From positions 1 to 27,231 of IMG/VR virus record IMGVR_UViG_3300017963_000668: a stretch of DNA of 27,231 bases, one strand, 5' to 3'. Shown one piece after another: positions 3,931 through 17,592 of this stretch (the first letter of the stretch is position 1; each line of letters starts with the position of its first letter). The translations under genes were made by a program, and so were the position numbers. Origin of the DNA: a virus. A model generated the notes under the pieces. It was not told where the DNA came from, did not search any database, and was given only the letters and a program-made list of their open reading frames with translations.

Positions 3931-4122
3931 ATGGACGCCGAACAAAGACAGTACGAAATAGAAAAATTAGCTACCCGCCTTGAAAATATCGATTATGAAT
4001 TACAGGCAGTTGCTCAATCCCACGGGTATCAAAGCAAGGAATACGAACAACTGGAAGAGCAACAAGACGCAGTGGAAGAACAATTAGCCGCGCTAGAGGA
4101 TGAAATGGACTATGAAATGTAA
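3931..4122 (+). CDS. Hypothetical 63-aa coiled-coil protein
   Basis: The start at 3931 is chosen because AAGGAT at 3921-3926, overlapping the stop of the preceding gene, is correctly spaced. An in-frame ATG at 3859 would overlap that gene by 64 bp. The product is almost all Glu, Gln, Leu and Ala with heptad-like spacing (for example EQLEEQQDAVEEQLAALEDE) and is strongly acidic, so it should form a coiled coil. It ends nine bases before the first CRISPR-like repeat, so transcripts of this gene would run into the array. Possible roles are a small inhibitor or a structural spacer; the sequence does not tell. Confidence 0.5.
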   Translation: MDAEQRQYEIEKLATRLENIDYELQAVAQSHGYQSKEYEQLEEQQDAVEEQLAALEDEMDYEM

Positions 4123-4130
4123 GTCCATAA

Positions 4131-4324
4131 GTTCCCCGCCGCGCGGGGATGAACCGGTGTTAGATTAGATTAAAAAAATTATCGATCAAGTTCCCCGCCA
4201 CGCGGGGATGAACCATAATTCAGAGTTTTAGCGCAAAACTATAATATCGAGTTCCCCGCCATGCGGGGATGAACCGGAGCGTTCCGCATTTTCCAATAGT
4301 TCCCCGCCCTGCGGGGATGAACCG
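4131..4324 (+). CRISPR. Four-repeat cas-less CRISPR-like mini-array, type I-E-like repeats
   Basis: Repeats lie at 4131-4156, 4190-4215, 4251-4276 and 4299-4324, each about 26 nt. Each has a 5' arm GTTCCCCGC, a variable triplet, and a 3' arm GCGGGGATGAACC (then G, A, G, G). CCCCGC and GCGGGG form a perfect 6-bp stem, and the outer GTTC/GAAC also pair. The only other differences are in the loop: CGC, CAC, CAT, CCT. The repeats closely match type I-E repeats (the E. coli repeat shares GTTCCCCGC and GCGGGGAT, but its loop is one base longer). Intervening sequences are unique: 33, 35 and 22 nt (periods 59, 61, 48). A normal I-E period is 61. No cas gene and no typical leader are present. It may be a phage guide array, an RNA anti-CRISPR, or a set of regulatory hairpins. 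Confidence 0.75.
4224..4245 (+). promoter_or_regulatory. Palindrome and perfect -10 element inside the second spacer
   Basis: AGTTTT-AGCGC-AAAACT (4224-4240) is an inverted repeat that overlaps TATAAT (4240-4245) by one base. A transcript from this -10 would begin around 4252, at the first bases of the third repeat. No good -35 is seen at 17 bp, so activity would need an activator or would be weak. This suggests the spacer may be a promoter/operator rather than an acquired protospacer. Confidence 0.35.
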
Positions 4325-4351: not shown

Positions 4352-4948
4352 ATGCCTGATATAAAATCTCAAATTTTCAGGGTTGAAATTTACTATATCA
4401 ACCCTCAGATCAAAATACATTCCAATATCAGCCCGGAATCATTTCGATATGGAAGGCCCCGTCTTTTCGATACTCGCTATATAATGCTTCATGCCGGACG
4501 CGAAAAGTCGCAAGTGAAAAAATTCAATCAAGCACTCCAAAATTTTATGCGGAATTGGAGATGTAAATATAAAAATGGCCAGCCATTCAAAAATACCAAC
4601 GCCAAAATATGGCCGCAATACTTTTCTTTCTACCAAAAAGATCACGATTTAATCCGAAAAATGATGTCCGCTCCGGATTCAATTCTCATTTGGGCAATGA
4701 CGAATCAGGAGCAAAACTGGAATTCCGGTTGGGACTCCGTAACATTTTCCAATCCGATTTATTTCACTAACGGTATTTTTGAGTGTTTTGAAGGAGGACA
4801 TGATCAAACCACTCTCAGAGTTCAGCTAGATAAAAAACGAGCGTATGCGGTTATGCTGGCGGGCATGGGAGAAGAGGACAAAATATCCGCCGAAGCTCTC
4901 GCTTCAATGCACACTCAAAACCCAAAATACTGGATAAACTATGAATAG
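4352..4948 (+). CDS. Unrecognised 198-aa protein just after the mini-array
   Basis: This soluble protein of 198 aa lies 27 bp after the last CRISPR-like repeat. The centre has an aromatic, Lys/Asn-rich stretch (KFNQALQNFMRNWRCKYKNG, then IWPQYFSFYQKDHDLI). Later residues include DSILIWAMTNQEQNWNSGWD. No catalytic motif is recognised. There is no good Shine-Dalgarno before the ATG at 4352, unlike the other plus-strand genes. The next in-frame ATG (4484) has none either, so translation may depend on the upstream hairpins or on coupling. It overlaps the next gene by 8 bp. The position next to CRISPR-like repeats in a phage makes it a candidate for an anti-CRISPR or a partner of the array, but this is guilt by association only. 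Confidence 0.5.
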   Translation: MPDIKSQIFRVEIYYINPQIKIHSNISPESFRYGRPRLFDTRYIMLHAGREKSQVKKFNQALQNFMRNWRCKYKNGQPFKNTNAKIWPQYFSFYQKDHDLIRKMMSAPDSILIWAMTNQEQNWNSGWDSVTFSNPIYFTNGIFECFEGGHDQTTLRVQLDKKRAYAVMLAGMGEEDKISAEALASMHTQNPKYWINYE

Positions 4949-10584: not shown

Positions 10585-11427
10585 CTACTCCTTTTTAACG
10601 TCCTTAGCGTCCATAGCGCATAGAAAACTTAAATTACGGTCGTTATAACCGTCATCCTCGTAGACCACCGAATCAGCTCCGGGAGTGTAGACCGCGAAAT
10701 TATCACCGCCCAGATAGCTGGTATCCTCAGAAGTGCTGGTCCATAAGCTGTATTCGGGAGACACCCGGAAAACAAGGTTTGGTTTCAGAAAATTTCCGGT
10801 CGCGCCTTGCCAGGCTTTTGTAAACGCCAATCTGTAAGCCCTGACCATTTCCGGCAAAGTCGGAATGCGCCCGCCAATGGACGCGCAATATAATCTCGCG
10901 TCGTCATATTCAACATTGCTGGCCGGAAGCAGCCCATCACCCTCCGGTTTATAGGTTTTGCTATCCGTCAAAAAGTTCAGATAAGCGTAATAAGGGACCG
11001 GCTCTTTCATGATAAAAACGCCGTTGCCCATATACCATGCCCCCGCTTTCAAGCCGGGATCGGCTTTCAGTTGAGGATGGCGGCCGGTTCCCACCAGGTA
11101 AAGCCCCGCGATATTTTCAGCCGACAAAGCTTCACTCCATTCAACGCTCTTGGCGTTTTCAAAAAACTTGACGCTATTGGCTACAATTCCCATTTCAACC
11201 AAAGCGTTCTTATGTCTGTCGGCCCACTCCGGAAAAAAGTACGGAAAACTAATGGCCGCGCAACCGGCCACTATCACGAACGCCCACCAGATTTTGGCTC
11301 CCAATGAGCAAAGCACTGCGAAAACGCCCGGCGTATCATCAACGGCTTGATAATCTCCAGTCCCGTCAACGGCGGCCGCGCCGCCGTCTATAGGGTTATT
11401 TGGCTCATACACTGATTGCCTGCTCAT
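10585..11427 (-). CDS. Membrane-anchored FGE-sulfatase/C-type-lectin-fold protein
   Basis: The 280-aa protein has a hydrophilic N-terminus (1-34), one membrane helix (about 44-64, AKIWWAFVIVAGCAAISFPY) and a periplasmic C-terminal domain. That domain reads like the formylglycine-generating-enzyme (SUMF1/FGE) type of C-lectin fold: VEYDDARLYCASIGGRIPTL (172-191, compare V-x-W-x-x-A-x-x-YC-x-x-xG-x-RLPT), then SLWTSTSED (227-235), and a C-terminal strand NDRNLSFLCAMD that stands for the usual GFRCA. The active-site Cys pair of true FGE is not evident, so a binding role is more likely than catalysis. The SD is excellent (GGGAGGAGATT before ATG). The start overlaps the patatin-like gene by 23 bp. 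This fold is used for ligand recognition and by diversity-generating retroelements; no reverse transcriptase is seen here. Confidence 0.6.
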   Translation of the reverse strand: MSRQSVYEPNNPIDGGAAAVDGTGDYQAVDDTPGVFAVLCSLGAKIWWAFVIVAGCAAISFPYFFPEWADRHKNALVEMGIVANSVKFFENAKSVEWSEALSAENIAGLYLVGTGRHPQLKADPGLKAGAWYMGNGVFIMKEPVPYYAYLNFLTDSKTYKPEGDGLLPASNVEYDDARLYCASIGGRIPTLPEMVRAYRLAFTKAWQGATGNFLKPNLVFRVSPEYSLWTSTSEDTSYLGGDNFAVYTPGADSVVYEDDGYNDRNLSFLCAMDAKDVKKE

Positions 11428-12745
11428 AATCTCCTCCCGCTGCTAGGTTAATTTTTCCTGAACCGCTGTCTATTCCGGCCTCCATCGCGGCCTTGCTTGT
11501 ATCAATGCTCGTAACCGCGTCAATCGGTTTGCATGCGAAACGCTGATAATTTATGGAGTAGTTCGCTTCGCTCAGTTTTTCTATCAACTGTTCCACCCTT
11601 TGCTCATAGACAAAATGCCCGCCCGACTCCAAGGCCACCTTGTCCGCCGCATGCCCCAATTTTTTTAATTGTTTGGCGGCCGGAGGATTGACCCTTACCG
11701 GCGCGCCGATAGAGTGAATCAGCAGATTTTTGTTGTCTCTGGACAGCACTAAACCCATAACATCATTTTTTTCAATGGCCCCCAGGAAAACCGCTCCCCC
11801 GTGAACCGTGTCGGTCTGGTTGAAATGCATTTTGGTCACGGCCGTATCCTCAACCGCCGTCCATAGCTCCATGCCGGGATTTTGCGGACTGTAATGAATG
11901 GAAACCTGCATGTCCGCTTGCATCACGTTTATTTGAAGACTGGTCAGACAATCCTTCATTCTCAAGTCCACTTCGCTTTTCGTGAACAGCTTTCGCAAAG
12001 CCGCCCGCGCTTGCTTGGCGTCGTATCCGCTTTGATAGGGTTTCATTTTTGAAGCTCCCCACCGCTGGACTTTTTTAAGTATCCCGGGATTAAAAACTTT
12101 TCTCCAGTCGGTAATCCACCAATTAGCCAAAACGTCAAAATCTATCCCGGAAGCCACAGCCGCCGCTATTATGGCTCCGTCCCCCTGCCCGGTGACTCGG
12201 TCGTAATATTGGTGCAACGGCTGTCTGAGCTGAAATTGAAGTTGTTTGGCTTTCTGCATCATGCCCAACCCCCGCGCCCAGCTATAAACGGCGTCAAAGG
12301 TCAGAATTTTCTGTCCGGCCAGATCGGGATAAGAAAGGTTGACATTCCGGATATTGTCGATTTCCTCCTGGTTTAAAGCTATCCTTTCGGCTTGTCTGGC
12401 TTGAAGCTTTCCCAGAAAAGGAATTTTACTTTTCTTTGCCGGCGGCTCTTCCGGAGCTGGCTCGACAACGGCCACTTCAGTTTTAACCGGTTCAATTTCC
12501 GGCTGTCCGGCTTGCCCGTCTTCCAGAAAAAACTGAACTGTAACAATGGATTGTTTCTTCTGACCTCTGAAGATGATTTCAATATATTCCGGCTTTCTGG
12601 CGTTCCTGGTTATTTTATGCCGCTGGCCGTCTGCGGTTGTCGCTATCACCGTCGACAAATCCACATCTTTCAATACCGGAACTGCTACGGTTTGAGAGCC
12701 AAAATCAGGAACAGACGTCCGGACAGTGGCTAATAGTTTTTCCAT
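11405..12745 (-). CDS. Patatin-like protein lacking catalytic residues, with extra N-terminal domain
   Basis: Residues 1-80 form a beta-rich N-terminal domain; 85-107 are a Pro/Glu/Lys linker. From about 143 the sequence follows the patatin phospholipase layout. KILTFDAVYSWARGL (146-160) stands where DGGGxRG lies, YDRVTGQGDGAIIAAAVASG (181-200) stands where GxSxG lies, LWTAVEDTAVTKMHF (294-308) resembles the A-ATSAAP-x-F segment, HGG (315-317) stands for DGG, and LLIHSIGAP (341-349) resembles the xSxGTG strand. The nucleophile Ser is Gly188, the catalytic Asp is His315, and the Gly-rich oxyanion loop is lost. So the fold looks like patatin but an active lipase is unlikely. The SD AGGAGGAGAT is near perfect. 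The fold call is mine by eye; a remote relative of another alpha/beta family remains possible. Confidence 0.45.
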   Translation of the reverse strand: MEKLLATVRTSVPDFGSQTVAVPVLKDVDLSTVIATTADGQRHKITRNARKPEYIEIIFRGQKKQSIVTVQFFLEDGQAGQPEIEPVKTEVAVVEPAPEEPPAKKSKIPFLGKLQARQAERIALNQEEIDNIRNVNLSYPDLAGQKILTFDAVYSWARGLGMMQKAKQLQFQLRQPLHQYYDRVTGQGDGAIIAAAVASGIDFDVLANWWITDWRKVFNPGILKKVQRWGASKMKPYQSGYDAKQARAALRKLFTKSEVDLRMKDCLTSLQINVMQADMQVSIHYSPQNPGMELWTAVEDTAVTKMHFNQTDTVHGGAVFLGAIEKNDVMGLVLSRDNKNLLIHSIGAPVRVNPPAAKQLKKLGHAADKVALESGGHFVYEQRVEQLIEKLSEANYSINYQRFACKPIDAVTSIDTSKAAMEAGIDSGSGKINLAAGGDYEQAISV

Positions 12746-17521: not shown

Positions 17522-17592
17522 TGTCATGCCGGACTTGATCCGGCATCCACCTAACCAATATTAATGGATGCCGGATCAAGTCCGGCATGACA
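17522..17592. repeat. Perfect 28-bp inverted repeat (host-type palindromic element)
   Basis: The arms are 17522-17549 and 17565-17592, exact reverse complements over all 28 bases, with a 15-base AT-rich loop (17550-17564). Each arm itself contains CCGGA-x-x-x-x-TCCGG, and the outer ends read TGTCATGCC/GGCATGACA. This resembles dispersed palindromes widespread in alphaproteobacterial and some other chromosomes. There is no T-run next to either arm, so it is not a plain intrinsic terminator. It lies between a small gene and the W-like gene in the baseplate operon. It may be a mobile palindromic insertion from the host. Confidence 0.8.

Follow-up and report, generated by a model that had tools for sequence, protein, structure and literature searches.

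The four type I-E-like repeats that a tailed phage carries in its early operon may well represent a tandem cluster of repeat mimics resembling the RNA anti-CRISPRs (Racrs), a reading that we hold with about even confidence. They were found in a virus record of 27,231 bases, which represents a fragment of a tailed phage and was analysed over its whole length (referred to as the window). The decoy strategy as such is already known from single repeats, whereas the unusual feature of the present case is its multi-copy form with four different shortened loops.

Sequence and structure of the repeats

The repeats span positions 4130-4324 as direct copies on the plus strand with start-to-start distances of 59, 61, and 48 nt, and follow the common formula AGTTCCCCGC-CNN-GCGGGGATGAACC, which is followed by either G or A (Table 1). 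An initial annotation of the same DNA had reported four I-E-like repeats at this place, together with their spacing and the four loop triplets, and all of these points were confirmed. The 25-nt core GTTCCCCGCCNNGCGGGGATGAACC yields four exact matches, all of them on the plus strand, compared to 0.00 expected from 100 dinucleotide shuffles, and no further copies appear in the window even if three mismatches are allowed; shuffles gave none. The extent assigned to the repeats and spacers had to be corrected: the conserved unit comprises 27 nt and starts one base earlier, which leaves linkers of 32, 34, and 21 nt.

Table 1. Repeats, linkers, and flanking genes of the repeat locus in the window.
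Feature	Position	Strand	Remarks
Upstream gene	3931..4122	+	63 aa, acidic, coiled-coil-like, no family; stop 7 nt before repeat 1
Repeat 1 (I-E-like)	4130..4156	+	AGTTCCCCGC-CGC-GCGGGGATGAACCG; 7-bp stem, 3-nt loop CGC
Linker 1	4157..4188	+	32 nt, ~19% GC; seed-like part without viral match
Repeat 2 (I-E-like)	4189..4215	+	loop CAC; handle ending in A (ATGAACCA)
Linker 2	4216..4249	+	34 nt, ~30% GC; seed-like part without viral match
Repeat 3 (I-E-like)	4250..4276	+	loop CAT; 25-nt core identical to Achromobacter solitary repeat L055:7950-7974
Linker 3	4277..4297	+	21 nt, 11-13 nt shorter than linkers 1 and 2; no viral match
Repeat 4 (I-E-like)	4298..4324	+	loop CCT
Downstream gene	4352..4948	+	198 aa, no family match

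A comparison of the four copies shows that 24 of the 26 core positions are invariant and that both variable positions are located in the loop. The observed loop variation requires a minimum of three changes, all of which affect loop sites (P ~0.0015 if the core sites were equally free to change). Base 27, which is the last base of the 5' handle, reads G, A, G, and G in repeats 1-4, indicating that the handle is not perfectly constant. The stems are identical in all copies, as expected for the CRISPR-type hairpins of Racrs, and the predicted hairpin energy amounts to -13.0 kcal/mol for each copy despite the different loops. None of 200 shuffles attains the folding stability of the 251-nt repeat region as a whole (z -4.1). 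An Rfam scan gave no family.

Genomic context

The right part of the window codes on the minus strand for a contractile-tail module, consisting of sheath, tape measure, two baseplate hub proteins, a baseplate wedge, and a tail fibre. A plus-strand run of small genes extends from 1.9 to 7.7 kb and starts with a ParA-like gene, which is located ~1.6 kb upstream of the repeats. The repeats themselves occupy the gap between two co-directional genes of this early gene cluster, and the phage-type context proposed in the initial annotation is supported. Because the stop codon of the upstream gene directly precedes repeat 1, the array is probably part of the transcript of that gene. A Racr would be expected to have a promoter within ~250 bp upstream. 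No sigma-70-like site was recognised on the plus strand between 1892 and 5502, where the scan matches did not exceed those in shuffled sequences, but phage promoters may differ from this type; expression is therefore assumed to rely on read-through within the operon.

The repeats are thus virus-borne, intergenic, and not accompanied by cas genes, as judged from a Cas7e profile search, which gave no match in this fragment, and from the open reading frames examined, none of which is cas-like. This agrees with the absence of cas genes from the window noted previously. A search for known anti-CRISPR proteins nearby returned only a match to the AcrIIA3 model with 13.9 bits against a cut-off of 70, which was rejected as chance. 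The scan of the small upstream gene began at 3952, seven residues downstream of its probable start at 3931.

No near DNA relatives of the phage were detected in INPHARED, and no relatives of the downstream gene or of ParA in IMG/VR. The only find of a search with the tail sheath was an identical 13-kb fragment that stops short of the array. Since the searches with these three proteins did not recover any relative of the phage carrying the repeat locus, selection on the repeats is deduced from the four copies alone. The relatives of ParA share 26-27% identity and belong to alphaproteobacterial and Campylobacter plasmids, without naming a host.

Some further features of the window concern regions away from the repeats. 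L001, a sequence that otherwise has 100% identity to the window along 12 kb, shows a second match of 73 bp (88%) at 17522-17592, which points to a short, diverged duplication inside the tail module. Adjoining genes of the tail module at 10585-12745 show a weak FGE-sulfatase-like and a sub-threshold patatin-like match, and a gene at 106-1032 codes for an outer-membrane beta-barrel-like protein scoring just under the Pfam cut-off.

Relation to type I-E CRISPR repeats

The arms of the window repeats equal those found in genuine type I-E arrays, down to the asymmetric ATGAACC handle, and are shared by the repeat of an Acetobacter I-E array (L044) adjoining annotated cas6e-cas1e-cas2e genes. In a set of 200 genomes from the phylum of an Achromobacter genome, seven contain these arms around a loop of 3 or 4 nt, in several cases within long arrays, while a reversed control pattern did not occur in the same genomes. 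The exact identity of the arms, with the asymmetric handle included, marks the repeats as a CRISPR-derived element, and this CRISPR origin is strongly supported. Their derivation from type I-E repeats, as put forward in the initial annotation, is likewise supported. It appears very improbable that the repeats are DNA-level sites merely resembling CRISPR repeats, such as operators, iterons, or parS-like sites belonging to the phage ParA. In favour of such sites, the arms are palindromic around a variable centre and a ParA gene is located upstream. However, a DNA palindrome does not need the ATGAACC motif, which is present exactly as in I-E repeats, annotated CRISPR arrays share the same 22 positions, and no partner DNA-binding protein was recognised beside the repeats.

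The host type I-E arrays of Acetobacter (L044) and Achromobacter (G001) contain arms and stems identical to those of the window repeats, but differ from them by constant 4-nt loops, a regular 61-nt period, and an adjacent cas or cas3-like gene. The same arms were found at 42 loci among 2.9 million viral contigs, all 42 of which exhibit a 4-nt loop versus the 3-nt loops of the window. A 3-nt loop between these arms occurs at only seven loci in ~85,000 genomes, none of which contain an array of 3-nt CNN loops. Four of the seven loci (L047, L048, L049, and L051) represent deletions in one or two copies inside ordinary 4-nt arrays, and the idea that 3-nt loops mark the host arrays of one lineage was therefore rejected. 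Another locus (L045) consists of an odd repeat from a methanogen MAG, and a further one is a regular four-copy mini-array with a 60-nt period (L046:2484-2695). The latter adjoins a VirB4-like gene and belongs to a proteobacterial MAG in which Cas6e was not detectable.

These data also bear on whether the phage captured a piece of a host I-E array that is now decaying without any present function, which we regard as rather improbable. Irregular spacing and non-identical repeats would be consistent with decay, and degenerate repeats are indeed present at the ends of the host arrays retrieved. However, decay should strike the stems as well, which is at odds with the nearly invariant core and a different loop in every copy, and 3-nt loops are so rare in host arrays that the capture of an ordinary array provides no direct route to the window repeats.

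The last of the seven loci (L050/L055) is located on a plasmid-like contig of Achromobacter sp. Marseille-Q4962 (genome G001). It consists of a solitary repeat, again with a 3-nt loop, whose core is the same as that of repeat 3 (Table 1). As read from the translations, this contig also encodes ParA and ParB, and the long chromosomal array of the same genome (L056), which has the same arms but the 4-nt loop GTAT, adjoins a cas3-like gene. Neither Cas6e nor Cas7e was found in the G001 genome. A mobile element thus carries a shortened-loop mimic of the repeat of its own host, which makes the solitary repeat a candidate for a plasmid-borne repeat mimic. For the window phage, this parallel is only suggestive.

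Other repeat clusters in phages without cas genes

Fifteen cas-less viral arrays with identical arms in all copies remained after removal of near-duplicates, and loop differences between their copies were counted by hand. In six of these (L003, L016, L018, L027, L028, and L040) the loops differ, so the earlier statement that normal arrays keep their repeats identical was too strong. Three clusters with loops varying between copies (L010, L016, and L027) are located inside phage gene clusters. One of them (L010:8312-8458) consists of three I-E-like repeats with an irregular spacing of 66 and 52 nt, flanked by a tail terminator gene and the gene for a major tail protein. Another (L016:6579-6665), from a phage fragment, contains two I-E-like repeats with the loops GCAC and ATGC between a dCMP deaminase gene and a scaffolding protein gene. 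A regular 61-nt period is seen in several other cas-less viral arrays. One linker of L010 is itself a long palindrome, and in another record (L026:1270-1336) the starts of two identical I-E repeats are separated by only 36 nt, which is far too little for a normal spacer.

Since Cas6e is absent from 41 of the 42 viral records carrying the same arms and clusters of the L010 and L016 type are found among phages, cas-less I-E repeat clusters are recurrent in these viruses, and the window is an extreme case among them. It shares with L010, L016, L027, and L003 the I-E arms, a neighbourhood of phage structural or replication genes, and the loop differences between copies, and with L010 also the irregular spacing. 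Unlike the window, these clusters have 4-nt loops, only two or three copies, and mostly a 61-nt spacing.

Properties of the linkers

The GC contents of the linkers (19-45%) are like those of the phage's own intergenic DNA (25-45%). The seed-like parts of the linkers did not match any of 2.9 million viral contigs in IMG/VR, in a search that tolerated any base at every sixth position of linkers 1 and 2 and required an exact 20-mer of linker 3. INPHARED phages and plasmids gave nothing significant either, in searches for exact or near-exact matches within these incomplete collections; matches to an Enterocloster phage (83%, E = 3) were not convincing. The comparison of the three spacers with phage and plasmid sequences, which had been recommended in the initial annotation, thus did not reveal a target in any of the three collections. 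Conversely, the spacers of the host arrays retrieved matched the window only in the repeats and by short chance matches.

The same annotation had offered two explanations, a guide array or a Racr-like element, the latter of which fits better. A phage-borne mini-array, whose three linkers are used by host Cas6e and Cascade as spacers against competing phages or plasmids, seems unlikely. Such a mechanism exists in archaeal viruses (PMC6858448, as described in PMC11656645), the repeat and one interval of 61 nt fit I-E units, and the regular 61-nt periods of the cas-less viral arrays mentioned above point in the same direction. Like the mini-CRISPR arrays outlined in these accounts, the window locus is short, contains at least two repeats separated by spacers, and is devoid of cas genes, so it would need host Cas proteins. 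It differs from them by linkers without match in the viral collections searched, non-identical repeats, and linker lengths that diverge by 13 nt instead of showing a constant, type-specific value. The missing seed-type matches (although targets could be unsampled), the lack of a convincing self-match, and the phage-like low GC content also speak against guide function.

Self-targeting within the window did not exceed the level of shuffles, apart from a weak 12-nt seed-like match between the start of linker 3 and the parA gene of the phage (2467-2456, minus strand). This match, together with the position of the hairpins between two co-directional genes, would accord with a Cas-dependent regulation in cis if the host has a I-E system, either by Cas6e cutting the operon mRNA or by crRNA-like RNAs steering Cascade to a phage promoter in the manner of CreA, so as to adjust phage gene expression. 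Such a function is nevertheless improbable, because the match lacks the usual PAM, lies inside a gene, and is not clearly above chance: four linkers were tested, and 2 of 60 shuffles did equally well.

Discussion

Racr-like mimicry remains the reading that we prefer for the window repeats. A single phage-borne repeat has been reported to be cut by Cas6 and to sequester Cas6 and Cas7, and non-targeting crRNAs also weaken interference (PMC10651486). The same study describes two type I-E Racrs, and its I-E candidates inhibit a Pseudomonas I-E system. Like these Racrs, the window contains a cas-less repeat mimic in a phage intergenic region, in which stem and handle are kept and a meaningful spacer is missing. 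It deviates by four tandem copies, each with a different 3-nt loop, in place of a single one, and in that no promoter-like site was recognised directly upstream. Published Racrs are defined as solitary by the SRUFinder rule, which admits no other repeat within 100 bp (PMC10651486). As the four copies are only 48-61 nt apart, the window cluster is not to be filed as a solitary repeat unit, but it probably works like one.

By analogy to the known Racrs, we infer the following steps of processing and sequestration. The operon transcript would expose four hairpins, each of which may be bound by host Cas6e and cut at the 3' base of the stem. An upstream RNA that lacks the handle and retains Cas6e on its 3' hairpin would arise from the first cut, as in RacrIF1, and the next three cuts would generate crRNA-like RNAs, in each of which a handle and a hairpin enclose a meaningless guide of ~20-33 nt. 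During infection, these decoys would compete with the real crRNAs for Cas6e, Cas7, and the other components of Cascade, and several copies per transcript should raise the decoy dose. Selection would be expected to keep the stem and the handle, which make the contacts to the Cas proteins, and to let the loop drift.

The clustered arrangement may have a more general meaning. Because the survey in PMC10651486 removed repeats with a neighbour within 100 bp, clustered mimics were left out by construction. We tentatively propose, with somewhat less than even confidence, that phages carry multi-copy arrays of repeat mimics (poly-Racrs), which are dropped by design in searches for solitary repeats. 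Their marks would be a stem and handle that stay fixed, loops that drift or are shortened, and meaningless linkers that vary in length, and each transcript would give rise to one handle-less decoy and several non-targeting decoy crRNAs. The window cluster would accordingly supply both kinds of decoy from one transcript, the handle-less hairpin RNA as well as the handle-bearing crRNAs. Its repeats also represent ready-made natural loop variants for testing the requirements of Cas6e. Provided that clusters of this kind function as decoys, RNA anti-CRISPRs would be more widespread than counted so far, and the combination of fixed arms and drifting loops would then help to distinguish between decoys and true guide arrays on the basis of the sequence alone.
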